The translations under genes and the position numbers were made by a program. Shown here piece by piece: positions 9,842-40,790 of a stretch of 64,000 nucleotides of DNA. The stretch's first letter is position 1, and each line of letters begins with the position of its first letter. Location of the stretch: NCBI RefSeq assembly GCF_022429645.1, contig NZ_CP092480.1, positions 1,329,501 to 1,393,500 of the forward strand, written 5' to 3'. Below the pieces are notes generated by a model. It had not been told where the DNA came from, did no database searches, and saw only the letters and a list, made by a program, of their open reading frames with translations. This DNA is from Lutibacter sp. A80 (GTDB lineage: Bacteria > Bacteroidota > Bacteroidia > Flavobacteriales > Flavobacteriaceae).

Positions 9842-12800
9842 TTAATTTACCTCAATTTCTAAAGGCAATATATCATCACTATACATCTCTCCATTACTAG
9901 CTGTAAAAGTAACACGCAACTGATAAAAATGTCCTTTAGGCAGTTTTTTTGAAGGTACAAGCCCTCTTAACGAAAAAGTCTTTGTTGCAGTTCCAGATTC
10001 GGTATACAATACCTCCTTATCCGTTAACACAACATCTTTTACTGGAATCCATTTACTTTTAAAATGTCTTAACCAAAATCGTATACCTCCTTCATCAGCT
10101 GAAATAATGCGATTTTCAGAACCAGCATTATATATTACAGATACTTTTAAATTATTTCCAATTTTAAGTGGTTGTTTTTTAATTTCAGCTTTATTTACAA
10201 TCTTAATATAAGGAGCTACAAATGGTTCTATTTTAATTTTAATTTCTGAAAACACAGAATTATCAGCTGTAGCGGCTCTAATTATAGCCGTTCCAGGTGT
10301 TTTGGCTTTAACAATTCCTTTATTATCAACTGTTAAAACATTTGAATTATTTGATTCCCAAGTAAGTTCTGAATTATCTGCATTTTCGGGTAAAATTATT
10401 GCTGTTAATTTAGCACTTTGACCTGTATAAAGTTTAGTTTTTTCGGCATTAATGATAATTGAAGTAACTGGCTTTGGAGTCCATTTTACAATTTCAATAT
10501 CTCTTTTTGCTATTAATCCATTCGCTTTGCTGGTGGCTGTAATTGTGGCTGTTCGATTGATAGCTCCATGTGCCTCAGCAATTCCTCTTTCATCTACAGA
10601 TATGATAGATTCATCACTAGTTAACCAGCTTGCACTACTATTAGCATTTTTAGGTGTAACTGAAAGGTTTAAGGCAATTTTTGAGCCTTTTCTAATAGTT
10701 AAAGGTTCAATAGAAATACTTTTGGGATCAATTTTATCAGTATCGTAAATTACGTTAGCATCTTTGTTTTTAAATTCAATAGTTTCCCCGTTTCTCCATA
10801 TTATTTTAATACGTTCTATTTTATTTTCATTTCCAAGCCCAAAATGAATAATATTCATTAAACTTTGAGAAAAAACTTCTCCTGAGGATCCTACACGTTT
10901 TCTATATTCGTTATTAGCTGTATTTACAATTACTTCAGCCGAAATAGGATCTACGTTTGATTTTGGAGCATAACCTACTCTTACTAAAACAAAATTACCT
11001 TGTGTTACTGTTTCATTGCTATACAAATACCATTCTCCACCTTCACTTCCATTTAATAAATCTAGTTTACCATCCAAATCAAAATCAAATGCCTGCCCCA
11101 TATCTCCATTACCGGGGCCACCAACATCGTTTGCTCCATGCATTGTTGTTGTTTCAAATGAATTCTTTCCTGTGTTTAAAAGCATATAATCTGATACTCT
11201 TGCTCCAACTCTACCCCATCTATATACAAAAAGATCTTGGTAACTATCGTTATTAAAATCTCCAGTAGTAACACCAAGTGAATTTCCTCCTCTAGGAAGC
11301 TTCCATTCTTTTGAAACGTCAATAAATTTATTACCATCATTTCGTAATAAAATATCTGAATGATTTCTATTATGCGGAGTGAATTTTGGAGTTACACTCG
11401 ATATATTTGAAAGACTAAATCTATATTGCCAAAAGAAATTATCATCGCGAACCAGGATAACCCTCCATTTTGAATTACCTAAATATCCAATATAAAAACC
11501 ATTTTCTGAAATATCTTTTGGCCAACCTTCTGCTATTTTTGGATAAATGACTAATTCTTCACCCGATTTTACAATTTTACGCGTTTTATTTTCACCCATA
11601 AAAATAGGATAATCTTTACCTAACAAAGAACCTTGCTCTAAATAATAATATTTATGTAATTTTATAAATCCTTCTGATGTAAAATCAAATGCATCCTCCC
11701 CTTTATAGCCTCTAGTTTTTAGAGCTAATTCTTTAGTTATTGGGTTAAAATCTAATGAAGGAGCTTCACCTTCGCCATGTTCAAAAAGTAATCCACGAGC
11801 CAAATAAAGATCTAAATCACCATCATTATCAATATCAATATCAGTTACAGCCATAATCTGTGTCAATGACTGAATATTCTCTGGAACAAGATTTGTTACA
11901 TTGGTATAGGTAAAATCTCCATTCCCTTTCCAAAAAGACAAAGAACCGTAAAAAATAAGATCATCAATCATATCATTATTAAAATCTGTGACTAAAACAC
12001 GTGATTCTTCAACATCTTCAATTCCTTTTACAGATCTGTATTTAAAAGTAGCATTACCGTTGTTTTCATAAAAAAAGTGTTGAGGCTTGTCGAATTTAAG
12101 ACTAGACTCATTAACAATAATTAAATCAAGATCTCCATCTAAATCCATATCTACCCATCTAGAACTACGACCTCTAGCACCTTTATCAATTCCAACATCA
12201 CCAGTATATAGAATAAGTTTATTATTATCATTCAAATAAAAATTAAGTGTTGAAGGATTTGTTCCATTACCTCCTCCTTGTTCTAAAACAAGATCAAGAT
12301 CTCCATCATTGTCAAAATCTCCAAGAGATGTACCATGCAAATCGTGTTTAAACCATCTTGATAAATCTTGGTAATGTTTTGTAACGGTTCCATCACCATT
12401 ATTCCAGTATAGTTTACTAGTTTCAGCATTATGATTGTTTACAATAAAATCATAATCACCATCATTATCAATATCCGCAATTGAGGGGCCTCCATATTTA
12501 ATAGAACTTACTTTATCCATTCCTGCTTTTACAGTAATATCTTTAAAAACTGGTAAATTTAATTTAGGAAGATCTTCAAAATAAATGTTATTAATCGTTA
12601 ATGTTTCATCAAGTGATTGAAATTTAATTTTCACTTTACCTAATTTTTTAAAAGTTATCAGACTTGTTATTTTTTGCTTCCCTTTTGTTGGAATATTAAA
12701 GTCATCCATTAAAAGTTCACCATTAACAAAAACACTTAAACCTGCATATTCTCCAGAGTTGGTAATATTTAAAATAATTTTTTTTGTTAAACTACCGCTT

Positions 12801-12946
12801 ATTGTGTAATTTATTGTTACTGGTGTTGAAGGTTCAATAACTATTTTCTTAGATATAATTTTTGCATCTCTAAAAGAGGGCATTGTAGTTTGAGCTGAAA
12901 TATTAAAAGTTATTACGACTAAAATTAAAAGTAAATTTTTTTTCAT
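9842..12946 (-). CDS. Secreted VCBS/FG-GAP repeat protein with ASPIC-UnbV and Big2 domains
   Basis: I place the start at 12946 (MKKNLLLILVVITFNISAQ), which gives a clean signal peptide and 1034 residues. An upstream in-frame ATG at 12979 would add 11 residues ahead of it. After an N-terminal beta domain come several FG-GAP/VCBS blades with Ca-binding-like DIDNDGDYDF, DFDNDGDLDL and DLDGDLDLI motifs. An ASPIC/UnbV-type segment (about 650-730; IKIIWRNGETIEF) follows, then two Big2 immunoglobulin-like repeats (about 750-920) and a C-terminal beta domain. I see no type IX sorting domain or catalytic motif. The likely role is a surface-associated or secreted glycan-binding or scaffold protein, or an enzyme of unknown chemistry. 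Its upstream region carries the same TTTGTCTAG element as the agar PUL, which links it to galactan metabolism. Confidence 0.85.
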   Translation of the reverse strand: MKKNLLLILVVITFNISAQTTMPSFRDAKIISKKIVIEPSTPVTINYTISGSLTKKIILNITNSGEYAGLSVFVNGELLMDDFNIPTKGKQKITSLITFKKLGKVKIKFQSLDETLTINNIYFEDLPKLNLPVFKDITVKAGMDKVSSIKYGGPSIADIDNDGDYDFIVNNHNAETSKLYWNNGDGTVTKHYQDLSRWFKHDLHGTSLGDFDNDGDLDLVLEQGGGNGTNPSTLNFYLNDNNKLILYTGDVGIDKGARGRSSRWVDMDLDGDLDLIIVNESSLKFDKPQHFFYENNGNATFKYRSVKGIEDVEESRVLVTDFNNDMIDDLIFYGSLSFWKGNGDFTYTNVTNLVPENIQSLTQIMAVTDIDIDNDGDLDLYLARGLLFEHGEGEAPSLDFNPITKELALKTRGYKGEDAFDFTSEGFIKLHKYYYLEQGSLLGKDYPIFMGENKTRKIVKSGEELVIYPKIAEGWPKDISENGFYIGYLGNSKWRVILVRDDNFFWQYRFSLSNISSVTPKFTPHNRNHSDILLRNDGNKFIDVSKEWKLPRGGNSLGVTTGDFNNDSYQDLFVYRWGRVGARVSDYMLLNTGKNSFETTTMHGANDVGGPGNGDMGQAFDFDLDGKLDLLNGSEGGEWYLYSNETVTQGNFVLVRVGYAPKSNVDPISAEVIVNTANNEYRKRVGSSGEVFSQSLMNIIHFGLGNENKIERIKIIWRNGETIEFKNKDANVIYDTDKIDPKSISIEPLTIRKGSKIALNLSVTPKNANSSASWLTSDESIISVDERGIAEAHGAINRTATITATSKANGLIAKRDIEIVKWTPKPVTSIIINAEKTKLYTGQSAKLTAIILPENADNSELTWESNNSNVLTVDNKGIVKAKTPGTAIIRAATADNSVFSEIKIKIEPFVAPYIKIVNKAEIKKQPLKIGNNLKVSVIYNAGSENRIISADEGGIRFWLRHFKSKWIPVKDVVLTDKEVLYTESGTATKTFSLRGLVPSKKLPKGHFYQLRVTFTASNGEMYSDDILPLEIEVN

Positions 12947-13059
12947 GAGCTGTTGGTTTAATAAATAATCAAAGACCATTTAATTTGAAATTAATAATTA
13001 TACAACTTCAAAATTAGAGGAAAATAGTTCAAATAGCTTTTGTTATAACGTAATTCTAT

Positions 13060-13074
13060 CTGGATAAAAACTGA
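13060..13074 (-). promoter_or_regulatory. Degenerate copy of the TTTGTCTAG element
   Basis: On the minus strand this reads AGTTTTTATCCAG, differing at two positions from AGTTTTTGTCTAG in the nearby element. It lies 83 bp from that element, about twice the 42-43 bp spacing seen at the other two promoters. This is a weak match that could be chance. Confidence 0.3.
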
Positions 13075-13141
13075 ACGAATCTAATTTTTAAACTAATTTT
13101 GAATAATATAAAAGGAGATCTTTTTAAAGTACCCAATATTT

Positions 13142-13174
13142 GCTAGACAAAAACTCAACAAGTTCTTGTCTCGC
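13142..13174 (-). promoter_or_regulatory. TTTGTCTAG regulatory element inside an imperfect inverted repeat
   Basis: Minus strand TTGAGTTTTTGTCTAG (13143-13158) matches the plus-strand sequence at 42785-42800 upstream of susC in all 16 positions. Here it is one arm of an inverted repeat: GCTAGACAAAAACT, a 5-nt spacer, then AGTTCTTGTCTCGC, with 12 of 14 positions pairing. It lies about 196 bp upstream of the VCBS/Big2 start. I infer a regulator-binding site. A leader RNA hairpin is an alternative. Confidence 0.5.
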
Positions 13175-13274
13175 TTATAAATATCTATTCTATATCTTGT
13201 TTTCGATTTAAAATAAAATTATTAAAGTCAACTTCATATTGAATTTTAAACCGGAGTATTTAAATGCAATTTAT

Positions 13275-13674
<400 letters not shown>

Positions 13675-13679
13675 AATAC

Positions 13680-14527
13680 TATTTAACTGATTTTCACTTA
13701 CTACAAGTCCATCTCACTTTCTTCATTCATACCTGCAGAAACAACTGTTTTTTGCAATTGAGATTTTACTTTTTCAATATATTCATCTGCTATTGATTCT
13801 TGAATAATCCAACGTGTTGCAGTGCAGCAAACTTGCTCTGTATTTAGTGTAATTGTAGTTGCTAATCCTTCAGCTGTTGCATCAATATCAGCATCTTCAA
13901 AAACAACAAGGGCGCCTTTTACTCCTAATTCTAATTTTACAGGTTTTAAGTTAAACCTACAATTTTAACCAATTATTTTACCTACTCGTGAAGACCCTGT
14001 AAATGACACACATTTAACTTTTGGATGCAAGGTTAAAACATTTCCTATCTCTGAACCACTTCCTGGAATTATATTTATTACTCCATAAGGAAGTCTTACA
14101 GATTTACTACTATTCATTCCTTCAAGGTTTAAGTCTTTTTCAAATGTTTCCTCTTTGATTAAATTATTATAATATCGTAAACAATCAATACCAAAAGGTA
14201 CGTCAAACCCTCTTACATTTTGAATAGATTTACCCACATCTAACGCTTCTAATTGTGCTAACTCTTCAGCGTCTCTTTCACACAAAACAGCAAATTTATT
14301 TAATATCCCAGAGCGTTCTTTAATACTAATATTCTTCCAAGATTGAAATGCATCACCTGCTACTTCAATAGCTTCAACTGCTTCATTTGCTGTTGGTTTT
14401 GACACTTTAGTTAAAATAGATTGATCTGCAGAATTTTCAATTTTAGAAGTACTTAGTTCCCATTTATAAAATATGGAATTGGTTGCTGACTAAAAAATTT
14501 TTGGATTTTTTGCGTATACGGTAACAT
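13680..14527 (-). pseudogene. Aldehyde dehydrogenase remnant (frameshift, nonsense codon, lost C-terminus)
   Basis: The frame starts at an ATG at 14527 (MLPYTQKIQKFF, then PYFING). It shifts near 14460 and continues through ELSTSKIENSADQ and AFQSWKNISIKERSG to FTGSSRVGKIIG. An in-frame TAA follows near 13965, and the same frame resumes as NLKPVKLELGVKGALVV, EDADIDA and NTEQVCCTATR, containing the catalytic-Glu and catalytic-Cys regions. The last 170 or so residues expected of a 480-residue enzyme are missing. A 146-residue open stretch (13965-14405) survives but lacks the catalytic half. The original substrate may have been the aldehyde produced by the adjacent aldolase, which is an inference. 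A conserved upstream element (14651-14684) is still present. Confidence 0.8.
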
Positions 14528-14650
14528 ACTATTATAGGTTTAATTAATAATTTTATTTTAATCACTAATTAAAACTGGTCACAAAAACATAAATACATTA
14601 ATTTCAATTAATTACCTTCAAAATTACGAATCAATTAAATAATATGTAAA

Positions 14651-14684
14651 ACACAATTTCAACCATAAAGTGTATTATTTTTCC
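14651..14684 (-). promoter_or_regulatory. Predicted AraC-type operator, copy 1
   Basis: On the minus strand the core TACACTTTATGG lies between GGAAAAA and AATTGTGT. The same arrangement occurs at 15633-15666 on the plus strand, with a 12-of-12 core and nearly identical flanks differing by a 2-nt indel. ACAC and GTGT form an internal inverted repeat. It lies about 125 bp upstream of the broken aldehyde dehydrogenase and just past the 3' end of that gene's neighbour, the araC-type regulator. Confidence 0.65.
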
Positions 14685-14741
14685 TTATTAACCAAGCTAT
14701 TTATATAATAAGGTGTAAACATGAACACAAAATAAATTGCT

Positions 14742-15587
14742 TTATTTAAAAAACATGGCTCTATACTGAGCTGGTGTTAACTTTGTAAATAGTTTAAACT
14801 GTCTATGGAAAAATGATAAATTAGAATACCCAGTTTCAAAAGCAATTTGTTCAATAGAAATTTCTGATTCTTTAAGTAATTCACAAGCTTTACTTACACG
14901 ATATTCATTTAAATAAGATGTAAATGTTTTTTTAAATGTTTTTTTAAAAAATTTTGAAAACGAAACTGGTGTCATAAATACTAAATCTCCTAATTGAGAA
15001 GATTCAATTTTTGATTGATAATTATTCCCTACAAAATCAATTATTTTTTTTATTCTATCAGAAACAACAGTATTAACATCAAAACGAGCTCCTAAACTTA
15101 ATATTTGGCTTTGTTCTAAAGAAAGATCGTGAAGTATTTTTATAGTTTCTATTAATCTATGTATTGGTAACATTTTTTTCATTAGAACCATTCTTTCTCC
15201 TATAGAAACAGATATTCTTTTATTAAATACTAAACCATAATTACTTTGATTAAGCATTTTTTTAATTAAAGAAAATTCATCTTTTTCTATCCAACCATTA
15301 CCTAAAAAATCATTTGTAAATTGAATTACTGTAGACTTGGCAAGTTGCTGTGTTGTTTTATTTGTTTTCCAACAATGTGGTAAATTTGGACCTAATAAAA
15401 CTAACTCACCAGGTTGATATGTCTGTATAGAGTTTCCAACGCTTCTAACACCTGTACTTTCAATTATATAGGTTAATTCCCATTCAGGATGATAGTGCCA
15501 AGGAGTTTCAAACTCTAATTTTTCAAATACTCTATAATGGAATGAATTATTTAAAGAACTGGAAATTGGTTCAAAAACAGCCTTCAT
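14742..15587 (-). CDS. AraC-family transcriptional regulator with cupin sensor domain
   Basis: 281 residues, a standard length. The N-terminal cupin (about 20-90; PWHYHPEWELTYI and PGELVLLGPNLPHCW) should bind a sugar or sugar phosphate. The C-terminal HTH pair (about 180-280) has LGDLVFMTPVSFSKFFKK and IAFETGYSNLSFFHRQFK. It is divergent from the kinase-isomerase-aldolase operon with 135 bp between starts, the usual layout of a local regulator. The near-identical elements at 15633-15666 and 14651-14684 are its likely binding sites, which would put the now-broken aldehyde dehydrogenase/enolase unit in the same regulon. The effector is unknown, and it may be the substrate or a phosphorylated intermediate of that pathway. 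Confidence 0.93.
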   Translation of the reverse strand: MKAVFEPISSSLNNSFHYRVFEKLEFETPWHYHPEWELTYIIESTGVRSVGNSIQTYQPGELVLLGPNLPHCWKTNKTTQQLAKSTVIQFTNDFLGNGWIEKDEFSLIKKMLNQSNYGLVFNKRISVSIGERMVLMKKMLPIHRLIETIKILHDLSLEQSQILSLGARFDVNTVVSDRIKKIIDFVGNNYQSKIESSQLGDLVFMTPVSFSKFFKKTFKKTFTSYLNEYRVSKACELLKESEISIEQIAFETGYSNLSFFHRQFKLFTKLTPAQYRAMFFK

Positions 15588-15722: not shown

Positions 15723-16625
15723 ATGCAATTTGATGTAATAGTATCAGGAATGATGGTTGTAGATATTTTATCTAAGGTTCCTGAAAGAATAAAGTCAGGT
15801 ACAAAACACGAAGTTTCAAAGATAATTATCCAAGGCGGTGCTCCTGCTGGTAATGCCGCTTGTGTTCTTGCTAAAAATAATTTAAAAACTGCCTTTTTAG
15901 GGTACAAAGCTTCAAATACGCTAAGCTTAATTGCCAATGAAGAGTTAAAAAAATGTGGTGTTGACACCTCTTTACTAATTGATAATGAAGATTTTCAACC
16001 TGCAATTGCAGTAGTTGAGGTAAATTCTAAAAATGGAGATCGTACTGTATTTTATTCAACAACTAATTACAAACCGCTTCAACCAAAAGATATTAATGAA
16101 GATTGGATAAAAAACAGTAAATTATTATTGGTTGATGGTTATGATGTTATTGGAAATTTAGAACTTTTAAAAATAGCAAACAAATACAATATTCCTTCAG
16201 TTTTGGATATTGAAGCTGGTGACCTTACTATATTAAAAGAAATGATTTCATTAGGAAGTCATATAATTTTACCTCTAGAAGGTGCTCAAATGATTGCTGA
16301 ATTAGATACTCCTAAAGCATGCTTAAAAAAATTAAATTCTCTTACCAAAGGACAATTAGTTATTACTGATGGAGCAAATGGCAGTTGGGCATTAGAAAAT
16401 GAAAAAATAATTCATCAGCCTGCTTTTTCTGTAAAAGTTGTTGACACTACAGGTTGTGGAGATGCTTTTCATGGCGCTTATGCCGCTGCCTTATTAAAAG
16501 GTAAGAACTTAACAGAACGTATGGAATATGCCTCTACATACGCATCTATAATTGCAACTCATTTTGGAGGCAGAAGTTACTTCCCAAATAACAATGAAAT
16601 TCAACAAATAATATTAAAAAAATAA
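15723..16625 (+). CDS. PfkB-family ketose kinase
   Basis: A 300-residue ribokinase-fold sugar kinase. The N-terminal substrate motif is GGAPAGNAACVLAK and the C-terminal anion-hole/catalytic motif is DTTGCGDAFHGAYAAAL (about 240-256, catalytic Asp near 247). The usual GAGD is GCGD here, a tolerated change. It is the first gene of a three-gene operon, with only 4 bp to the isomerase start. In this context it should phosphorylate the ketose made by the isomerase, ATP-dependent and cytoplasmic. Candidate substrates are L-tagatose (from L-galactose), L-fuculose or a sulfo-ketose. The sequence alone does not decide which. Confidence 0.88.
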   Translation: MQFDVIVSGMMVVDILSKVPERIKSGTKHEVSKIIIQGGAPAGNAACVLAKNNLKTAFLGYKASNTLSLIANEELKKCGVDTSLLIDNEDFQPAIAVVEVNSKNGDRTVFYSTTNYKPLQPKDINEDWIKNSKLLLVDGYDVIGNLELLKIANKYNIPSVLDIEAGDLTILKEMISLGSHIILPLEGAQMIAELDTPKACLKKLNSLTKGQLVITDGANGSWALENEKIIHQPAFSVKVVDTTGCGDAFHGAYAAALLKGKNLTERMEYASTYASIIATHFGGRSYFPNNNEIQQIILKK

Positions 16626-16629
16626 AATT

Positions 16630-18177
16630 ATGGAAACAGAAACTTTAAAACAATCAGTAATAAATTTAAATTTAGATATTTTGAAACGAAAAGGTATAGT
16701 TGCAGAAGAAATGGAGAAACTTATCTGCAAGGCTCCAATAAAACAAAATATTAAAATTGGCCTAATTGGAATTGGTTTTGAATTGCATTTTGATTGGGCA
16801 AAAGCAAAAAAATCTTATACTGAAGCAATTGAGCAAACTAAAAGTGTTTTTAACTCTCAAAATCAATTATTAGCATTAGATGAACCACTTCAAACAAAAA
16901 AAGAACTATTAAAAGTATTAAACAAATTTAATACGGAAGGTATGAGTGGTTTAATTATTTATCAGGCCTCATATATTTCTGGAGACCTGGCTTTAGCTTT
17001 AGGTAATTGGCTAAGTGAGAATAAAATACCTTTATTAAGTTGGTCTCACGATGAAGTAACCGGTGGACGATTAACAGCCAACAGGTTGTGTGGACAAAAC
17101 TTCTTATTGAACATACTAAATTCTTTAGAAATTAAATACTCTTGGGTTTTAAACGCTCCAAAAACCAAACAATTAGATACCGTTTTAGACAAGTTTATCC
17201 GTGTTGTTAGTGCAAAAAAAAGAATGCAACATTCAAATATGCTTATGATTGGTGGTATGCGTGTTCCTGGTTTTTACGATTGTGAGTTAAATGAAATCTC
17301 AATTTCTAAACATTTTGGCTTAGGTGTTGAACGAGTGGATATTGAAACTATTTGGAAACATGGTGAGAAATTTAAAAAAGAAGATATTAATAATATTGTA
17401 CAAAAATTAATTAACTCTAAAAAGTGTAAATTTCATAAAGTAAGTGACCGAGAATTGTATTTATCAATTCGTTTTAGTTTAGCAATTGCAGATTATGCTC
17501 GACAAGGAGAATATTTAGGTGTAGCCTTAAAAAACTGGCCAGAATTATTTGACAATTACCAAATTGCAGGTGATGGTGCTGGTGCTTTGGTGCAAGATTT
17601 AGGAATTCCAGTCGCAGATGAATCTGATATGGGAGGTTTACTTACAATGATCACTATGAATGAGGTTAGTAATGGAAATGCTCTACCAACCCTTACTGAT
17701 TTATCTATTTTAAATACAGATGAAAATAAACTAGGAATGTGGCATTGCGGAGGTTCGGCAACAAAATTATTACGCAAAGGAACTAGTTTTGAAATAAGAA
17801 ATCATAGTATTTTAGATAATTATGATGAAGATCAATCTTACGGAATGCTATTAGAATTTCTTTTAGAAAAAGGAGCAATTACAATTGCAAAATATCAATA
17901 TCCACACGCATCAAGTATGCTTTCTTTTGAAGGAGAAATAGTTGATTCTCCAATGCGTTTTAGAGGAGCATATGGAGAAGTTTCTCCAAAAAATGTAAAA
18001 GCATCCGCAGTAGTTGGAACTATTTTAAGTAAAGGTTTAGACCACCATTGGATTATTGGTCGTGGACATATTCAAGAGGATTTACAAGAATTTAATCATT
18101 GGTCTGATATTGAAAATTTAGACTTTATAAAAGCAACAACAACAGGAAGAAGTATTCAAAAAAAATTAAACTACTAA
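16630..18177 (+). CDS. FucI/AraA-fold sugar isomerase
   Basis: 515 residues with the L-fucose/L-arabinose isomerase superfamily layout: an N-terminal Rossmann-like domain (IGLIGIGFELHFDWAKAK and GLIIYQASYISGD), a central domain (MLMIGGMRVPGFYDCE; GAGALVQDLGIPVADESDMGG) and a C-terminal beta domain (GMWHCGGSATKLL; DHHWIIGRGH). The ADESD acid pair and the downstream His probably form the Mn site. It should interconvert an aldose and a ketose in the cytoplasm. It is coupled to the kinase upstream and followed after 17 bp by a class II aldolase, so the three enzymes make a complete isomerise-phosphorylate-cleave route. It differs from classical FucI (about 590 residues), so the substrate should not be assumed to be L-fucose. 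Confidence 0.85.
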   Translation: METETLKQSVINLNLDILKRKGIVAEEMEKLICKAPIKQNIKIGLIGIGFELHFDWAKAKKSYTEAIEQTKSVFNSQNQLLALDEPLQTKKELLKVLNKFNTEGMSGLIIYQASYISGDLALALGNWLSENKIPLLSWSHDEVTGGRLTANRLCGQNFLLNILNSLEIKYSWVLNAPKTKQLDTVLDKFIRVVSAKKRMQHSNMLMIGGMRVPGFYDCELNEISISKHFGLGVERVDIETIWKHGEKFKKEDINNIVQKLINSKKCKFHKVSDRELYLSIRFSLAIADYARQGEYLGVALKNWPELFDNYQIAGDGAGALVQDLGIPVADESDMGGLLTMITMNEVSNGNALPTLTDLSILNTDENKLGMWHCGGSATKLLRKGTSFEIRNHSILDNYDEDQSYGMLLEFLLEKGAITIAKYQYPHASSMLSFEGEIVDSPMRFRGAYGEVSPKNVKASAVVGTILSKGLDHHWIIGRGHIQEDLQEFNHWSDIENLDFIKATTTGRSIQKKLNY

Positions 18178-18194
18178 CATAAAATATTAAAAAA

Positions 18195-19037
18195 ATGAAA
18201 AATCCAGATTTAATCCAACTATTAAACAGTTACAGAGCACAGCAAAAATGTATTATTGGATTTAATGTAAATGACATATATGACTTAAAAGCTGTTGCAT
18301 TAGCAGCAGAAGAGGCTAGTTGCCCTGTTATGGCAATGACCTACCCTCCAGTTGTTGATTTAAATTCAAGTCTATTATGTAGAAAAATGGTAGACGGAAT
18401 TCAACCTTACACAAAACAACCAATTTATTTGCATTTAGACCATAGTATTTCTGTAGATATGTGTAAAAAAGCCATTGATGATGGTTATGACTCTGTAATG
18501 ATTGATGGGTCACAAAAAAGCTTAAAAGAGAACATTGCAATGACAAAAGAAGTAGTGCGTTATGCAGAGTCTGCAGGTGTTTTGGTTGAAGCTGAAATAG
18601 GTAAAATTATGGGACGTGATGTTGTTGTAAAATCTGATGCTGACTTTTTAGCAAGTGTATCAGATGTTAAAGCAATTGTTGAAGAAGCAAACCCACATAT
18701 TATGGCTGTTGGAATTGGAACTTCACACGGATTTACTCCAATCACACCTCAAATACACTTTGATAGATTAACTGAAATTGCTAAAGCTGTAAAAGTTCCT
18801 TTAGTTTTACACGGCGGTACAGGTATTCCTGATGAAGATATACAGAAATCAATCACCATGGGAGTAGCTAAATTAAATGTTGGCACAATTGTTCATACTA
18901 CTTATATGAAAGAATTATATAAGGAAATTGGCAAGAATTTGGATGGTGCTTATCCTCCATACTTAATGAAAGAGGTAATTCCAAAAATTCAAGCAGTTGT
19001 TTTAGATAGATTAAAAGCAGTTAATTTTAATAACTAA
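18195..19037 (+). CDS. Class II (zinc) ketose-bisphosphate-type aldolase
   Basis: 280 residues, the length of the GatY/KbaY tagatose-bisphosphate aldolase branch of the class II FBA family. Zn-ligand histidines are visible in HLDHSISVD, SHGFTP and LHGGTGI. VEAEIGKIMG and KLNVGTIVHTTY match the phosphate/DHAP-binding loops. It should cleave the phosphorylated ketose from the two upstream enzymes to dihydroxyacetone phosphate plus an aldehyde. It is the last gene of the operon, and a strong hairpin lies 37 bp downstream. The use of an FBA-type rather than a FucA-type aldolase argues against a textbook L-fucose pathway. Confidence 0.9.
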   Translation: MKNPDLIQLLNSYRAQQKCIIGFNVNDIYDLKAVALAAEEASCPVMAMTYPPVVDLNSSLLCRKMVDGIQPYTKQPIYLHLDHSISVDMCKKAIDDGYDSVMIDGSQKSLKENIAMTKEVVRYAESAGVLVEAEIGKIMGRDVVVKSDADFLASVSDVKAIVEEANPHIMAVGIGTSHGFTPITPQIHFDRLTEIAKAVKVPLVLHGGTGIPDEDIQKSITMGVAKLNVGTIVHTTYMKELYKEIGKNLDGAYPPYLMKEVIPKIQAVVLDRLKAVNFNN

Positions 19038-19073: not shown

Positions 19074-19109
19074 AAAAAACTCAAAATTGAAATCAATCTT
19101 GAGTTTTTT
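19074..19109. terminator. Bidirectional intrinsic terminator
   Basis: AAAAAACTCAA pairs with TTGAGTTTTTT, with an inner ATTGA/TCAAT stem and a 2-nt loop. The A-run and T-run ends make it functional in both directions, closing the aldolase operon (+) and the long agar operon (-). Confidence 0.85.
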
Positions 19110-26936: not shown

Positions 26937-28031
26937 TTATATCTCTTCGTATGGCGCTAATTTTTCCCAATTGAAAATTACGCCAGTTCCAGGGTAATCA
27001 GGGGCTACAGCTCTATAATTCTCAACCACTAAAGGTCTTGTTGTATACTTGTCAATAGGAAAGCTATGAACTTCTAACCAGCCTGAATTAGGTTGTGCTG
27101 AGACTAAACTTACGTGCAATTCTTGCATTCCATGTGAGCACGCTGGTATACCATTTTTAGCAGCTAATTTTGCAGCAGCTAACCAGCCTGTTATACCTCC
27201 GCAATTTGAAGCATCTGGTTGTATAAAAGATAATTTTGCCTGATCCATTGCATATTCAAATTCGTGAATTGTATGTAAATTTTCTCCCATTGCTAAAGGG
27301 AATCCTGTTTGATCAGCAATCTCCCCAAAACCTTTATAGTTATCTGGAATAATTGGTTCTTCAAACCAAGCGATATCATATTGTTTAAATCCTTCAATAG
27401 CTTTAATGGCTTTTTCAATGGTCATAGAATAATTAGCATCTACCATAAAAGTTACGTTTGGGCCAATGTATTCTCTAACTGCTTTAATTCGATCTAAATC
27501 TTCTTGTAAATTTTCACGACCAATTTTAATTTTTACAGCGTTAAAACCTTTTTCAAGGTAGCCTTTCATATTGTTTAGCAACTTCTCAATTGGAAACATT
27601 AAATCTATACCACCACAATATGCTTTACACGTATTATTGGCTCCACCGGCAACTTTCCAAAGAGGTTGGTCTAATTTTTTACAACGAATATCCCATAAGG
27701 CAATGTCAACTGCTGAAATAGCAAAAGAAGCAATTCCACCACGACCTACATAGTGTATATGCCATTCTAAAAAATCGTATATTTCATCAATATTAGTTCC
27801 ATCTTTACCCATTAAAACGTTTGTAAAGTCGTGTTCAATCATTGCTTTTATTGCAAATCCGCCTTTCCCGCCAGTATATGTATAGCCAGTACCTTGACTG
27901 CCATCTTCTAAAGTTATAGTAACGGTTACTAATTCGAAATGGTAATGATCGCCATGTTTGGCATCAGACATTACTTCTGGTAATGGGACTGTAAATAAGC
28001 GTGTTTCTATTTTTGAAATTTTTGTACTCAT
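26937..28031 (-). CDS. Mandelate-racemase/enolase-family 3,6-anhydro-L-galactonate cycloisomerase
   Basis: 364 residues. The KxK catalytic lysines are in AVKIKIGRE (about 169), the Mg ligands in MVDANYS (Asp, about 195), WFEEPI (Glu, about 221) and AMGENLH (Glu, about 249), and the general acid/base His in CSHGMQE (about 299). The capping domain begins with [13 protein letters not shown]. The established agar pathway uses an enzyme of this superfamily to open 3,6-anhydro-L-galactonate to 2-keto-3-deoxy-L-galactonate. The operon with GH117, GH86 and the aldehyde dehydrogenase supports this. The D-AHG cycloisomerase DauB of carrageenan loci is the main alternative, but no kappa/iota-carrageenase or GH127/GH129 gene is nearby. 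Confidence 0.87.
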
Positions 28032-30246: not shown

Positions 30247-31809
30247 TTATTTTAACTCTAACTCTTGGATCTCAATATTTTCATTACCTCGAATTTTTAA
30301 ATATTCTTTTTTTAATTCTGCTAATTTTTCAGGATTTTTTGATGCGAGATTAGTTGTTTGACCTATATCTGTTTTTAGGTTATACAATTGGTATTCTTTG
30401 GAATTCCCAAGCTCAATATTTACATCTTCATTTAAAGATACGCCATCATAAGGAGGTATCATTATCCAGTCACCGCTTCTTAAAGCTGTTTTGGTATTTG
30501 CTTCAACTATTAAGCTTTCTCTACCTATGTTGCTTTTTCCAGTAAAAGTGTTTAATAGATTTTGACTATCGGAAGGTTGAATTTTAGTGTTAGTTAATTC
30601 GGCAATTGAGGCAACTAAATCCATTTGACATACCAGTGCATTACTTATTCCTGGTTGAATTTTTCCTTTCCAGTAGGTTATAAAAGGAATTCTAGTTCCC
30701 GCATCAAATAAACTGTATTTCCCACCCCTTAAACCTCCTGTAGGTTGGTGATTCCCTAGTTTTTCAACGGCATCATCAAAATAGCCATCATTTAATACTG
30801 GGCCATTATCACTTGAAAAGATAACAAGGGAATTTTCAAGAAGTCCTTCTTTTTCAAGAGTTTTCATAAACTCCCCAATGGTCCAATCAGCTTCAATAAT
30901 AACATCACCTCTTGGTCCCATCCCCGACGCACCTACAAAACGTGGATTTGGAGTTCTTGGCACATGAGGTTGTTGTAAAGCATAATATAGGAAGAATGGT
31001 TTTTCTTTGTGCTTTGATATGTAATTTTTTGCCTTTTCTAAAAATTGGTCAGACATGTCTTCATCTGTCCATTTTGCTTTTTCACCACCTTTCATGAAAC
31101 CTATTCTAGGGATTCCATTAACAATACTATTATTGTGTCCGTGATGCCATTTCATGGTTAATAATTCAGGATTATTAATTCCAGTTGGTTGACCTTTAAA
31201 ATTGGTATTATAATTAATTTCAATAGGGTCATTTTTATCCAAGCCAACTACATCTCCATTTTCAATATAAACAGTAGGAACACGATCTTGAGTAGCAGCC
31301 ATTATATATGAATAGTCAAAACCAACTTCATTCGGTCCAGGACTAACTCTTTCATTCCAATTTAGGTTCCCTAAACCTAGGCCAAGATGCCATTTTCCAA
31401 CAATTGCAGTTTGATACCCTGCTGTTTTTAATATTTTAGGTAGTGTTTGTTCTTCGAGACTTATTATTAAAGGAGCTGATCCAGGAAGGATTTTAGCATC
31501 TTTATTTTTCCAAGGATAAGAGCCTGTTATTAAAGCGTATCTACTTGGTGTGCAAGTAGCTGATGATGCATAGGCATTTGTAAATAGAAGGCCTTCGTTC
31601 GCTAAATTATCGATATTTGGTGTGCTTATTTCAGTGGCTCCGTAGCAACTCAAATCACCATATCCTAAGTCATCAAGATAAATAATTATAATGTTGGGTT
31701 TTTCGGAATTTATTGAAATATCTTGCTTCTTTTCTTTATTGGAATTATTACAAGAAATAGAAAGAAGAAATACAACTAGAATATAAATAGAGCCACTGAA
31801 TTTTTTCAT
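30247..31809 (-). CDS. S1-family sulfatase lipoprotein
   Basis: 520 residues. Lipobox VVFLLSISC (Cys20) places it in the periplasm or on the outer membrane. The formylglycine site is SATCTPSRYALITGSY (Cys86, the CxPSR type, requiring an anaerobic- or FGE-type maturase encoded elsewhere). Metal-binding residues are seen in IIYLDDLGYGDL and FSSDNGPV, with GKWHLG as the usual substrate-site motif. It probably strips ester sulfate from a galactan oligosaccharide, such as L-galactose-6-sulfate of porphyran or a D-galactose sulfate of agar. Its presence separates this operon from one for plain agarose. It lies between the aldehyde dehydrogenase and GH3 genes. Confidence 0.92.
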   Translation of the reverse strand: MKKFSGSIYILVVFLLSISCNNSNKEKKQDISINSEKPNIIIIYLDDLGYGDLSCYGATEISTPNIDNLANEGLLFTNAYASSATCTPSRYALITGSYPWKNKDAKILPGSAPLIISLEEQTLPKILKTAGYQTAIVGKWHLGLGLGNLNWNERVSPGPNEVGFDYSYIMAATQDRVPTVYIENGDVVGLDKNDPIEINYNTNFKGQPTGINNPELLTMKWHHGHNNSIVNGIPRIGFMKGGEKAKWTDEDMSDQFLEKAKNYISKHKEKPFFLYYALQQPHVPRTPNPRFVGASGMGPRGDVIIEADWTIGEFMKTLEKEGLLENSLVIFSSDNGPVLNDGYFDDAVEKLGNHQPTGGLRGGKYSLFDAGTRIPFITYWKGKIQPGISNALVCQMDLVASIAELTNTKIQPSDSQNLLNTFTGKSNIGRESLIVEANTKTALRSGDWIMIPPYDGVSLNEDVNIELGNSKEYQLYNLKTDIGQTTNLASKNPEKLAELKKEYLKIRGNENIEIQELELK

Positions 31810-35526: not shown

Positions 35527-38091
35527 TTATTTTATACTAATTTCAATATCAGAAGTTTCGAACCCATCAACTTTTGCACTTACAATTACTTTTTCAGCTT
35601 TATCCAATGCCTGAATAATTAATAAAGTTCTTCCATTATGAGTGGTATTTTTATTTGTTTGAAATTTTTGAACACTCTTTATCCAACCATTATCTACACC
35701 TAATAACTTAGCATTTCCTTTTATTTCAAAAGTAATTTCTTTGTCATCGGTAAAAACTGGATTCCCTTTTTCATCAACTAGCTGAGCTACAATATGAGCT
35801 ACATCGTAGTTATTAGCATTTATTGTTTTTTCTTCTGAAGTAAGTTTAATCCCGGTTGCAGTTTTTGCTGTGATAATTTTACTTTCAATTGCTACTCCAT
35901 CTTTTTTTCCTTTTGCAACTAGGGTACCTTCAATAAAAGGAACTCCCCATTTGTAGATATGATCTTCAAAATCAACTAATTTTTTTAAACCTAATGATTG
36001 GTTGTTTAAAAACAATTCGATTTCTTCACAATTTGAATAAATTTCAATTGAAATCATTTCACCATTATTATAATTCCAATGGTTATTAACATCTTGCCAT
36101 TGCCAAAGTGCATGTTCCCATTTTTTAGGATCTTTAGCTACAATATTTCCATTTGCATCTATTTTATTGAGTGATTTTTCAATGTTTTGTGTTGTAATTT
36201 TTAGAGTTGGTTCTTTACTCCATAATGATTTCATCATATAATAAGAGCCTCGAGGGAATCCAGCAGTATTTAACAAGCCTGATGGTTGTACACGCACCGG
36301 CCAAGGATCTCTAATTTCACCCATATAATCAATTCCAGTCCATAAAAATGTACCCGATATAAATGGACGTTCTTCAATAGCTTTCCATTCATGATATTGC
36401 GGTAAATTTTCAGTACCCATAATTACTTTATCCGGATAATTTTTATGGCCATAATCATATAAAACTCTTCTATAGCTATAACCTACAATATCAAGAGCGT
36501 CACTATAACCCGACAAATGACTAGAGGAGGGTAAAATGCAATTTGCAACTACTGGTCGTGTTTTATCTAACTCTTTTGTCCATTTAGCTAATTTTTTAGC
36601 AGTACGTTCTATACTGTATTTACCTTCTGGATAAGTATCCAATATTTCTTTAATTTTTTCTTTTGAATGTGGTGGTTCAGACCAAAAATAATTCCCATTC
36701 CAATCCATATTATCAAAAAAACCAGTTGCAGCAGCATTTTTTGGATACGTCCATTCGATTTCATTTCCAATACTCCATTGTATTATTGAAGGATGATTTC
36801 TATGGCTTAACATGATATTTTTCAAATCTTTTTCGGCCCAATTTTGAAAATATTCAGTATAACCTCTTGTTATATAATCTGTACTTTTACTTTCTTTTTG
36901 ATTAAATCTTTTATCTTTTGGATAATCCCACTCATCAAAAAATTCATCTTGCACTAAAAATCCCATTTCATCACATAGGTCTAAAAATTCTGATGAAGCT
37001 GGATTATGTGATACTCTAATTGCATTTGTTCCACCATCTTTTAACGTTTGAAGTCTACGCTTCCAAACTCCTTTTGGCACAGCAGCACCAACTAAACCAG
37101 CATCGTGATGCAAACAAACTCCCTTTATTTTCATGTTCTCTCCGTTTAAGAAAAAACCTTCGTTGGCGTCAAACAAAATACTTCTTATACCAAATTTTGT
37201 AATGTAAGAATCAACTACACTACCTTCCTTTATAATTTCAGTAATTGCTTTATACATACTTGGAGTGTTAATTCCCCAAAGTTTTGGATTTACTACCTCA
37301 ATTTGTTGAATTAAAGTCTCTAAAGAATTTTTATCTAAAGTTATGGTACTTTCAGCAACTCCTACCTCTTTATTATTTTCATCAAATAGTGTTGTTTTAA
37401 TAATTGGATTTTCAATTACATCAAAATCATTTTTAACTTTTATATCAATTTTAACTGTTGCTTTATTTTCTGAAACATTTGGAGTAGTAACAAAAGTTCC
37501 CCAAACAGGAATATGAAGTTTGTTTTGTGTAATTAAATCTACTTTTCTATAAATTCCAGCCCCAGAATACCAACGACTATCTGCATATCGTGTATGATCT
37601 ATTTTAACATCTATAGTATTGTTTTCTCCATCTTTATTTAGATATTCAGAAATATTGTAATAAAAAGGAGAATAACCATATGGGTGAAACCCTAATTTTA
37701 CACCATTTATGTAAACTTCAGAATTGTTGTAAACACCATCAAAATGAATATAAGTAACTTTATTTTCATCAAATCTTTGATTAAATGTTTTTTGGTAATA
37801 TCCATATCCTTTACCTGCTAAGTATCCTGTTGCTTGGGCGTCATATGCTAGTAATGAATCAAATTCACTTTCTACTACCCAATCATGAGGTAAATTTAAT
37901 TTTCTATATTTATTTTTTGGAATGGAGTTTATTTCTTCATTTTCTTGAGATAAATAAAAACCCCAATCTAAATTAAAATCATCACAATTGTTATTCACCT
38001 CATCGATTTGATTATTGCAACTTACTAATAAGAAACCTAGAAAAAATAACAAGGTTAATTCTATTCGGCATTTTAATTTTAACTTATTCAT
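35527..38091 (-). CDS. GH2 beta-galactosidase lipoprotein
   Basis: 854 residues with a lipobox (FLGFLLVSC). Domain order: sugar-binding ([30 protein letters not shown]), Ig-like, TIM barrel, then C-terminal beta domains including a DUF4982-like and an Ig-like domain. The acid/base is in [11 protein letters not shown] (about 444) and the nucleophile in [15 protein letters not shown] (about 558). Its start ATG overlaps the GH86 TGA (ATGA, 38088-38091), so translation is coupled. It should remove non-reducing beta-galactose from odd-numbered agaro-oligosaccharides in the periplasm, feeding GalM. Porphyran loci carry a similar GH2. Confidence 0.92.
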
Positions 38092-40724
38092 TTACTGAGT
38101 ATTAATTTCGTTTGTAATTGTACTTTATTTCCTTTAGAAGCACTAATCATATAAATGCCTTCTGGTAAAAAAGAGACATCGATTTTTTCTTCTAAAACTT
38201 CTATTTTTTTTGTTTTTAATAAAACCCCATCTATAGAATGTATAAATAACTCACCACCAATCATATCTTTAGAAGTAGAACAAGTTAAGTTTCCCTTAGA
38301 CGGGTTTGGATAAACTTTTAAACCGTTTTCTAAAAAGACATTTTGTTCGAACATATTTGAACATTGTTTAGAAGCAGTTACAGTAATTTTATTTGTTCCA
38401 AATTGTATTGGTAATTCAATTTTTTTTTGTGTTGTACTTGTTTTAACCCCATTAATTGTTATTTCATAAGCATCACTCCCTTTTAAACTGAGTGAAACAG
38501 TTTTATTTATGGCATTAATTTTTGATACTACAGATAATGCTTCTGGCTCATTTATTTGAAGTTTAAATGAGGCTATATAGCCTGGAAACTCAGGAATTGA
38601 TATTTCAATAGTATAAAAACCTGATTTTAGATTATTAACATTTAAGGTGTCAGAAAAACTAAACTTCTCATTATAACCTTCACCTGCTACAGTTGCAAAA
38701 TAATTTAATGTTTTAGTAGTAGCTATTGCTATTTTACCATTATTTTCCCCTCTACAAGTTACACTTGTGGTTTTTATTTTATAATTATCATCCGAAATAT
38801 CACTTACTTTATCTTTACGAATGTCATTACTAAATTCAAAAACTCGCATACTAACACTACTAATATGCCCTCCAGTATCATTAAATTGAACCGTAACAGT
38901 ATTATTTGTCTCTAAAAGATTATATGGAACAGGTATTTCTAATACTCCAAAAAACTGAGCTCTATCTGCTTGATCATAACCTCTCCAATTTGAAGGAACA
39001 TCAATTACTGTATTGTTAAATTTCACAACAGGATTTAAAGATTTACCATGTGCTCTTCCGAGACCTAGCCGTAATATAGCTTCACCATAATTCCCTTTTA
39101 AAACACCATTTATATTAAACGTTTGTACAGTGTTTTCGGTAATCGGTTTTAAATAAGAGTTAGCATAATATTTAATTTCATTTGAAGTTTCATCAATAAC
39201 AATGTCTTCTTCAAAAGTATATTCTAAAATCATAGTTGACTCAGCTCCAAGAATTATAGAATTAGTATTAGTAATAGGCTCCTCAATAAGTATTGGAAAA
39301 TTTCCGTTTAATGTTAAATGCTTTTTTAAAATATTGGTAATGGAATTATTGTTTGAATCAAACAATTCTAAATCAATGGTTTCTTCCTTAAAATTTAAAT
39401 TATTTAAAATAATATAACCTTTATTTCCATCTACATAGGCATTAACTTGGATATCTAAATTATCTGAAGTTATATCAACTCTAGTACCACGAACATTTTT
39501 CCATAATTGATAAAATTTAACCATATCTGTATATACCCATTCTCCAGTATAACTTTCTGGTTCATTCGCTTTTCTCATTAGCCTATGGTTATATGGAACT
39601 CCTGTAGCACTATTATAACCCCATTCTGCTTTTACAATTATAAAATTAATTGCAGAAGCAACTACATTTGGGCGTTCTAAAAAAGACATTAATTGTGAGT
39701 TACTTGCCTTAATATGTAACCAATCTCTATATGGACTCCATTGTTCTTGTGCATAATCATGCATTTGTGCCCCATATTCTGAAACCACAATGGGCTTAAC
39801 TTTGTTAAAAAAAAGCATGCTATAATGCTCCATCATATCAAAAGTGGCTTCAATATTACTTCCAGAACGCAAATCTTTTTTACCATTATTAATAGAAGGA
39901 AAATCATATAGATGTATAGAGAAGAAGTCCATATTATCACCTGCAACATCCATAAAAAGTTTATCTCTATTTTCCCAACGTTTAAAATCTCCAACTTCAA
40001 AATCAGGAAATGCAGCTGTATATCCTCCAATTTTTAAATCAGGAGCTTGAACCCTAATTGCTTCAGCTACTTCGTTATGAAATTCTGCTATCTCTTGTAA
40101 AGAATTAGAATAATCGTTTTTACCACCCAAGCTATGATAAGCAGGTTCATTAATAATCTCAAGAAATAAAGGTTTTTTCTGACCATTGGTTCCATGAAAA
40201 TTATTAATATAACGTCCCATATATTCACCTGTAGCAGTAGCATTTGCCAAATACCAACCTTGGCTTGTTGGTTTTTGATCTGTTCCTGTCCAAAAAGGAT
40301 TTAATTGACCTGCTATAACAAGGCTTTTTCTATCTTCATATTTATGCAGCGCAACATTACTTTCAAAATTACTTCTTGCATTAGCTCCTTTACTTATAAT
40401 TTCAGAAGGATCTACAAAACCAGCTCTGTCTGGATCTTGTTGTATGTTATTTAAATTCCAAGTAATTCCTCCAGTATCTCTTCCTAAATAAACATCGTAA
40501 CCGTTTAAAAAATCATTTCTTAAATCTGAAGTAAAATTAGAACCATCCCATTCATTTTCTGTTTGATTTGCATGTATTGAAATAAATTTTGAGCGATCAA
40601 ATATTGAAATAGAATCTATAGTATGTTTAACATTTAAATTAACATCTACTCTAATTTGAGAAAAAAGATTTGATGTAATCAAAATCAAACATACATATAT
40701 AAAAAAATTTCTAGAAATATTCAT
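38088..40724 (-). CDS. GH86 beta-agarase/beta-porphyranase with type IX secretion domain
   Basis: Start at 40724 ([23 protein letters not shown], a good signal peptide); an in-frame ATG at 40751 would spoil it. 878 residues. The TIM barrel opens with [16 protein letters not shown] and [14 protein letters not shown], both GH86 hallmarks. Acid/base Glu in [11 protein letters not shown] (about 192) and nucleophile in [13 protein letters not shown] (about 315). Beta-sandwich domains follow, and the last 75 residues are a type A T9SS sorting domain ([22 protein letters not shown]). It is thus exported and probably attached at the cell surface. It endo-cleaves agarose or porphyran. GH86 holds both activities and I cannot decide between them from motifs. 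First gene of the operon, preceded by paired TTTGTCTAG elements. Confidence 0.93.
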
Positions 40725-40790
40725 TTTATTCACCTGTATTATAATTGCCATACAAAATTGACGAAATAATGGTTATAAAGGAATATAATT

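Follow-up and report, generated by a model that had tools for sequence, protein, structure and literature searches.

Which sugar is degraded by the products of a kinase-isomerase-aldolase cassette that lies beside an agar/porphyran polysaccharide utilization locus in Lutibacter sp. A80? The cassette was analyzed within a 64,000-nucleotide stretch of this genome (contig NZ_CP092480.1, positions 1,329,501 to 1,393,500), referred to here as the window; the genome consists of one contig of 3.93 Mb. Three intact, co-directional open reading frames (ORFs) encode a PfkB-family kinase, an isomerase and a class II aldolase, with spacings of 4 and 17 bases, and the gene for an AraC-type regulator is divergent from them (Table 1). 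The initial annotation read these ORFs as an isomerise-phosphorylate-cleave module under an AraC regulator, and both the protein families and the conserved gene order agree with that description. The cassette looks like an unstudied breakdown route for an unusual red-algal sugar, possibly one independent of oxygen. Our first choice of substrate, which the initial annotation did not consider, is 6-O-methyl-D-galactose (G6Me). Judging from sequence, we put the chance that the cassette encodes a ketose-1-phosphate glycolysis for this sugar at slightly under even.

Porphyran and many agars carry G6Me. Reisky reportedly described in 2018 its oxidative demethylation by a cytochrome P450, and this oxygen-dependent route is the only one known to us. 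A 2025 study of how gut bacteria use porphyran states that demethylation in anaerobes was not elucidated and probably follows a mechanism yet to be discovered (PMC12316285). The cassette is a specific candidate for G6Me use, and is carried by Vibrio, Aliagarivorans and a Bacteroidales metagenome-assembled genome (MAG). Vibrio and Aliagarivorans are facultative anaerobes.

Scans of genomes and plasmids, together with whole-genome searches, yielded 18 cassette loci, the window included. One genome, G023, was treated as the same organism as Lutibacter citreus (L001) and counted once. The number of independent loci is below 18: one MAG holds both L008 and L009, and the Aliagarivorans loci L003 and L005 are nearly identical. 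At the Colwellia locus (L010), frameshifts split the genes for the isomerase, aldolase, alcohol dehydrogenase (ADH) and enolase, which were dropped from counts or their pieces kept separate. The order kinase-isomerase-aldolase was identical at all 18 loci, and this recurrence indicates that the cassette is more than a chance assembly. An AraC gene lies approximately 2 kb before the isomerase gene at 17 of the 18; L007 lacks it. Comparison of the four genes with those of L001, G009, L002 and G194 gave dN/dS values of 0.06-0.18, indicative of purifying selection, with dS against G194 above 1.2 and thus near saturation.

The carriers comprise Flavobacteriaceae, the Bacteroidales MAG, Persicobacter plasmids, Vibrio, Aliagarivorans and Colwellia, most of which appear by gene content to be users of agar or porphyran. 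The cassette is rare. At 50% identity or more, it was present in 5 of 397 genomes of the family, with a further 25 giving matches at no more than 26% identity; at E 1e-60, it was present in 2 of 395 genomes of the phylum Bacteroidota. Within the genus, it occurred in 3 of 38 genomes, including that of the window. A literature search, limited to open-licence PMC articles, returned no description of this cassette, which is no proof of its being unpublished.

A proposed route for 6-O-methyl-D-galactose

In the proposed route, the isomerase would convert G6Me to 6-O-methyl-D-tagatose. With C6 blocked, the PfkB kinase would act as a 6-O-methyl-D-tagatose 1-kinase and place a phosphate on C1. The aldolase would then cleave the ketose 1-phosphate to dihydroxyacetone phosphate (DHAP) and 3-O-methyl-D-glyceraldehyde. 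This C3 aldehyde may be reduced by an ADH, as predicted for Vibrio, where an ADH gene follows that of the aldolase, or oxidised by an aldehyde dehydrogenase (ALDH). In some carriers, an APH-type kinase and then an enolase paralogue could take the product on to phosphoenolpyruvate (PEP), with loss of methanol. The window strain, in which this second module is decayed, would dispose of the aldehyde in another way. We infer every substrate and reaction from the observed gene content and order, conservation and decay, family assignments and residue changes.

The closest sequence relative of the kinase in the PDB is the sulfofructose kinase YihV (7ag6; E 1.2e-24). In the kinase model (pLDDT 85.5), YihV was narrowly the nearest enzyme, with Z of 36.7 and 3.1 Å over 292 residues as compared to Z of 35.5 for ribokinase. 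Residues K27, N109 and R138 of YihV presumably bind the sulfonate. Of these, the Lys is kept in all 18 kinases and falls in a segment of the model (residues 22-34) with pLDDT below 50; the other two positions are Tyr (Tyr111 and Tyr140) in all 18, and in this the kinase departs from YihV-type sulfofructose kinases.

The only profile to match the isomerase was NF048012 (sulfoquinovose isomerase), at 153 bits versus a cut-off of 700; the cut-off is harsh, as the isomerase of a sulfo-EMP2-like cluster (EMP, Embden-Meyerhof-Parnas) in Candidatus Chlorohelix scores 343. In a Foldseek search with the AlphaFold2 model of the isomerase (pLDDT 79.6, pTM 0.85), the L-arabinose isomerase AraA was the best match (E 1.1e-18), and FucI-type enzymes followed at 1.5e-12 or worse. 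Alignment with VIA-align over 427-446 residues gave Z of 24.6-26.2 for AraA and 23.5-24.2 for FucI/D-arabinose isomerase, a small lead for AraA in the modelled fold. Such searches give no residue-level ligand contacts and were used for fold only, not to draw conclusions on substrate. Glu331, Asp357 and His472/473, which we take from FucI to be metal ligands, are kept in all 17 aligned isomerases and in the SqvD-like enzyme of Chlorohelix. The modelled fold and these putative ligands would place the isomerase in the FucI/AraA ketol-isomerase superfamily. AraA acts on L-arabinose and D-galactose. Although it is the best fold match, it is only 10-14% identical to the cassette's isomerase, which has no Pfam match and other operon partners.

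The aldolase alignment contains the motifs LHLDH, T(A/S)HG and LHGGTG. All 17 aligned aldolases (the frameshifted L010 was excluded) have Gly at the position of KbaY A232 and Pro at that of KbaY R257. The latter is the DPR-motif Arg that binds the C6 phosphate in class II fructose-bisphosphate and tagatose-bisphosphate aldolases (FBA and TBA), and its replacement sets the cassette enzyme apart from them. Together, this Pro and the two kinase Tyr residues point to a substrate with a neutral C6 end. Relatives of the isomerase and of the kinase act on D-hexoses blocked at C6 or, in the case of AraA, on L-arabinose and D-galactose, which we counted in favor of G6Me.

The genomic setting is likewise that of red-algal galactan use. 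The initial annotation had placed the module beside an agar/porphyran locus, and the porphyranase domains encoded in the window (Table 1) bear this out. Homologues of the window's MR/MLE enzyme (E 1e-60 or better), which we take to be a 3,6-anhydro-L-galactonate cycloisomerase, occur in 13 of the 15 carrier genomes, the two without being G323 and Vibrio hannami. Proteins with the agarase carbohydrate-binding-module domain PF17992 flank the Aliagarivorans cassettes (L003 and L005; two scanned, one from each), and similar proteins lie near those of L006, L007 and G194.

In addition, a P450-ferredoxin-ferredoxin reductase-ADH-esterase cluster (families scanned on L002) adjoins the cassette at 3 of the 17 loci other than the window: Algibacter lectus (L002), Colwellia maritima (L010) and G194. 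The three loci differ in arrangement, and the starts of the P450 and isomerase genes are 2.9-6.2 kb apart. Brott 2023 includes Algibacter lectus among arrangements of G6Me-demethylation genes (PMC10033563). A P450 homologue, at least 62% identical in true matches, was found in 8 of the 15 carrier genomes. Under uniform placement, the probability that at least three of eight P450s fall within 7 kb of the cassette is 1.7e-6, with the caveat that genes serving a single polysaccharide cluster in any case. In the Flavobacteriaceae sample, the P450 was present in 4 of 5 carriers versus 24 of 392 other genomes (p 1e-4, or 2e-5 without the window's genome), assuming that the cassette and P450 searches drew on the same genomes. 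The P450 system and the cassette would share the proposed sugar and, at three loci, a position; they differ in that the former is oxidative and releases formaldehyde, and no homologue of it was found in the window's genome.

At three Vibrio loci (L004, L006 and L007), a zinc ADH gene follows the cassette, and L004 and L007 also have a sodium:solute symporter gene there; these genes are located at approximately 12.5-15.3 kb of the loci. The Vibrio ADH is 27-29% identical to that of the Algibacter P450 cluster and was rejected as its orthologue.

A proposed downstream module with an enolase paralogue

The initial annotation noted a dead ALDH beside the cassette that would have handled the aldehyde product. 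An ALDH remnant is indeed present (50.8% identical to the ALDH of Persicobacter, L016:7734-9212, over query residues 36-334, with 55 gap positions), but this account was incomplete: the remnant of an enolase paralogue lies next to it (Table 1). Both remnants belong to an ALDH-APH kinase-enolase paralogue module that is intact elsewhere. A tblastn search of window positions 12900-14750 gave no remnant of the APH kinase.

In Persicobacter sp. JZB09 (L016), all three genes are intact and divergent from the cassette. In Colwellia, they adjoin both the cassette and the P450 cluster, the enolase gene being frameshifted. In Aliagarivorans marinus, a symporter gene heads an operon with the ALDH, APH kinase and enolase genes away from the cassette; this symporter shares 75% identity with its counterpart next to the cassette of Vibrio hannami, a further link between cassette and module. 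Of 17 genomes or records, four have the APH kinase; the enolase paralogue (at least 64% identity) was found in the same four and as the window's remnant. Vibrio hannami has, in addition, a second, diverged operon (L097:8538-16838) with genes for an ABC transporter, a 41%-identical isomerase, a PfkB kinase, an aldolase, an ALDH, an APH kinase and an enolase paralogue, as well as a 406-residue ORF without a Pfam or NCBIfam match. It is possibly a complete pathway from an unspecified hexose to DHAP and PEP.

The enolase paralogues that cover the sites retain Lys342, Glu209 and the metal ligands (E. coli enolase numbering). However, His370, the catalytic His of enolase, is Ala in all 10 APH-associated paralogues, and Asp replaces Glu168 in all nine that cover this site; the window's remnant also has Ala at the His position (SARSGETED). 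Both His370 and Glu168 are kept in all 14 of the carriers' other enolases, which were recovered from 16 loci. We take these two residues to sit at the leaving hydroxyl of the enolase substrate. The paralogue differs from phosphopyruvate hydratase in these residues and in its pairing with an APH kinase and ALDH, and shares 41-52% identity with the two ordinary enolases used for comparison. At position 162, the three agar-type paralogues that cover the site have Trp, whereas six plasmid paralogues have Arg. At the plasmid loci L102-L105, L108 and L109, an APH kinase gene is paired with one for an enolase paralogue that has the His-to-Ala change and is annotated as phosphopyruvate hydratase.

From these changes, the paralogue may expel methanol or, alternatively, act on 2-phospho-L-glycerate. 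In the former case, the cassette and module together would convert G6Me to DHAP and PEP by an oxygen-independent demethylation, methanol rather than water being expelled, and from 2-phospho-3-O-methylglycerate rather than 2-phosphoglycerate. We regard this full scheme as doubtful; if true, it would be a new way of stripping O-methyl groups from sugar carbons.

Weighing of the candidate substrates

Overall, G6Me would fit the relatives of the enzymes, the adjacent P450 cluster, the six carriers without GH29 and the unusual downstream enzymes. A P450-free route would also have a use in the 7 of 15 carrier genomes in which no P450 homologue was found (the window's complete genome, both Aliagarivorans, three Vibrio and the Bacteroidales MAG). 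Several observations weigh against G6Me. For six of the seven genomes without a P450 homologue, the absence comes from drafts or a MAG. If the cassette and the P450 both consume G6Me, they are redundant where they lie side by side, and their co-occurrence shows an association with red-algal galactan use rather than with one sugar; it could reflect agar use alone. In G244 and L008, the cassette has GH29 genes within approximately 4 kb. Adjacency of the ALDH-APH-enolase module to the cassette is limited to 3 of 18 loci, one being the decayed copy of the window, and the enolase paralogue scores above the NCBIfam cut-off for ordinary enolase (536.5 against 300 for TIGR01060). Finally, APH-enolase pairs with the same residue changes occur on plasmids of Rhizobium, Methylobacterium, Paracoccus, Roseibium and Rhodococcus; the two genes are adjacent or, in two Rhizobium plasmids, within approximately 6 kb. 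Some of these pairs neighbor FAH hydrolases and short-chain dehydrogenases. This wide spread suggests L-glycerate as a generic substrate, which favors L-galactose.

L-galactose, the substrate that the initial annotation found attractive, is unlikely in our estimate. It would be converted via L-tagatose and L-tagatose 1-phosphate to DHAP and L-glyceraldehyde, and the decayed module would have taken the latter through L-glycerate and 2-phospho-L-glycerate to PEP. The porphyran setting and the GH29 genes near the cassettes of G244 and L008 fit; FucI shares the fold of the isomerase, approximately 2 Z units behind AraA; and in Paracoccus and Roseibium the FAH hydrolases that neighbor APH-enolase pairs suit L-glycerate. 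The difficulty lies in the aldolase. Sugars of the D-galactose type give 3S ketoses, whereas L-galactose gives a 3R ketose. All PF01116 enzymes known to us make 3S ketoses, and we know of no stereochemical switch within this family. According to a 2024 paper, the selectivity of DHAP aldolases is set by the enzyme, with FBA from rabbit muscle giving 3S,4R products and the rhamnulose and fuculose aldolases sharing a C3 configuration that is 3R in their products (PMC11274987). L-galactose would thus require a stereochemical switch inside PF01116.

The distribution of GH29, a family that acts as an L-galactosidase on porphyran oligosaccharides in the gut-bacteria study (PMC12316285), also counts against L-galactose. 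GH29 was present in nine carrier genomes and one plasmid but gave no match in the other 6 of 15, all Gammaproteobacteria; other families might do the L-galactosidase job there. Moreover, an L-galactose pathway described in the literature is oxidative (PMC12632266). If the cassette does act on L-galactose, it would be a non-oxidative pathway for this sugar. With either G6Me or L-galactose, a function would be assigned to three enzyme subfamilies whose nearest labels are now sulfoquinovose isomerase, ribokinase and fructose-bisphosphate aldolase.

The initial annotation held that the module is not textbook L-fucose catabolism, and this was borne out. The FucI, FucK and FucA pathway has the same three-step logic, and the isomerase has the FucI fold. 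However, the cassette has a PfkB kinase and a PF01116 aldolase in place of FucK and FucA, and a tblastn search of the window with FucA, FucI, FucO and a partial FucK gave no match at E 1e-3.

Plain D-galactose, cleaved as D-tagatose 1-phosphate to DHAP and D-glyceraldehyde, is quite improbable. The AraA-like fold of the isomerase is consistent with it. FBA has Asp where tagatose aldolases have a small residue, and at the presumed equivalent position the cassette aldolase has a small residue. On the other hand, all 15 carrier genomes have galK (14 over the cut-off), which indicates that D-galactose already has a route, and D-glyceraldehyde would not need a dedicated kinase and an enolase without the His.

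Another C6-blocked D-galactose, such as D-galactose 6-sulfate, is very improbable. The enzymes would follow the same logic as for G6Me, except that the enolase step would release sulfate rather than methanol; the window encodes a sulfatase, and the kinases keep the Lys of YihV. The two Tyr residues of the kinase, the Pro of the aldolase, and the Trp, not Arg, at enolase position 162 of the agar-type paralogues argue against it.

Sulfoquinovose, a second possibility in the initial annotation, is most improbable through a hybrid of the sulfo-EMP and sulfo-EMP2 pathways, and was rejected as first choice on the distribution of the sulfoquinovosidase YihQ, the kinase positions and the NF048012 score. 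Both pathways, sulfo-EMP2 with SqvD, SqiK and SqiA and sulfo-EMP with YihS, YihV and YihT, isomerise, phosphorylate at C1 and cleave to DHAP and a C3 aldehyde. The nearest families of the isomerase and kinase are sulfoquinovose isomerase and sulfofructose kinase: the isomerase is related to SqvD, the kinase to YihV, and the aldolase belongs to the SqiA family, PF01116. A reported hybrid from Yersiniaceae, in which a sulfo-EMP cluster contains SqvD and SqiA, would use the cassette's three families; the same source defines sulfo-EMP2 by a PfkA-family sulfofructose kinase, PF00365, whereas the cassette kinase is PF00294 (PMC9594981). The mix of families is thus by itself compatible with sulfoquinovose. 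The aldolase is of the sulfo-EMP2 family and the isomerase is below the NF048012 cut-off, a weak test alone. The cassette differs further in the Tyr residues at the presumed sulfonate positions, in its agar/porphyran setting and in having no sulfoquinovosidase in the set. Orthologue-like YihQ matches (53-56%) were found in 2 of 15 carriers, split in one; the window's genome gave only matches of 28-30%. A sulfoquinovosidase in the same genome is usual, not universal, for sulfo-EMP pathways.

The Candidatus Chlorohelix plasmid (L067) has a sulfoquinovose-isomerase-like gene beside genes for a pyrophosphate-type phosphofructokinase and a sulfite reductase. From its gene content, this cluster looks like sulfo-EMP2 in a Chloroflexota phototroph.

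Other features of the window and related loci

Table 1. Features of the window, with positions counted from its first nucleotide.
Feature	Position	Strand	Basis of assignment
Enolase-paralogue gene remnant, C-terminal part only, one internal stop	13281-13661	-	75.6% identity to Persicobacter (L016) enolase residues 304-430
Aldehyde dehydrogenase gene remnant, internal gaps (includes ORF 13965-14405)	13710-14441	-	50.8% identity to Persicobacter (L016) ALDH
AraC-type regulator	14742-15587	-	PF12833 (AraC HTH_18), 70.6 bits; PF07883 cupin
PfkB-family kinase	15723-16625	+	PF00294, 118.8 bits
Isomerase, SqvD/AraA/FucI superfamily	16630-18177	+	NF048012, 153 bits; no Pfam match
Class II aldolase	18195-19037	+	F_bP_aldolase PF01116, 238.5 bits
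MR/MLE enzyme	26937-28031	-	PF13378/PF02746
Sulfatase	30247-31809		PF00884
beta-Porphyranase (presumably GH86)	38088-40751	-	PF18206 and PF18040

Between the aldolase gene and a converging KDPG-aldolase-type gene, an 11-base inverted repeat with A and T runs on either side (19074-19109) is likely a two-way terminator. At 9842-12979, the window encodes an FG-GAP/ASPIC/Big_2 protein; homologues approximately 50% identical lie near the cassettes of L006 and L007, and related proteins near that of G194. Judging from their translations, two ORFs on the - strand at 50973-53332 resemble halves of one broken TonB-dependent receptor gene. In Algibacter, a 290-residue ORF without a Pfam match was read as GH16. 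In Lutibacter citreus, a pyruvate formate-lyase gene (L001:3327-5582; PF02901 and PF01228) is located approximately 4.4 kb upstream of the isomerase gene.

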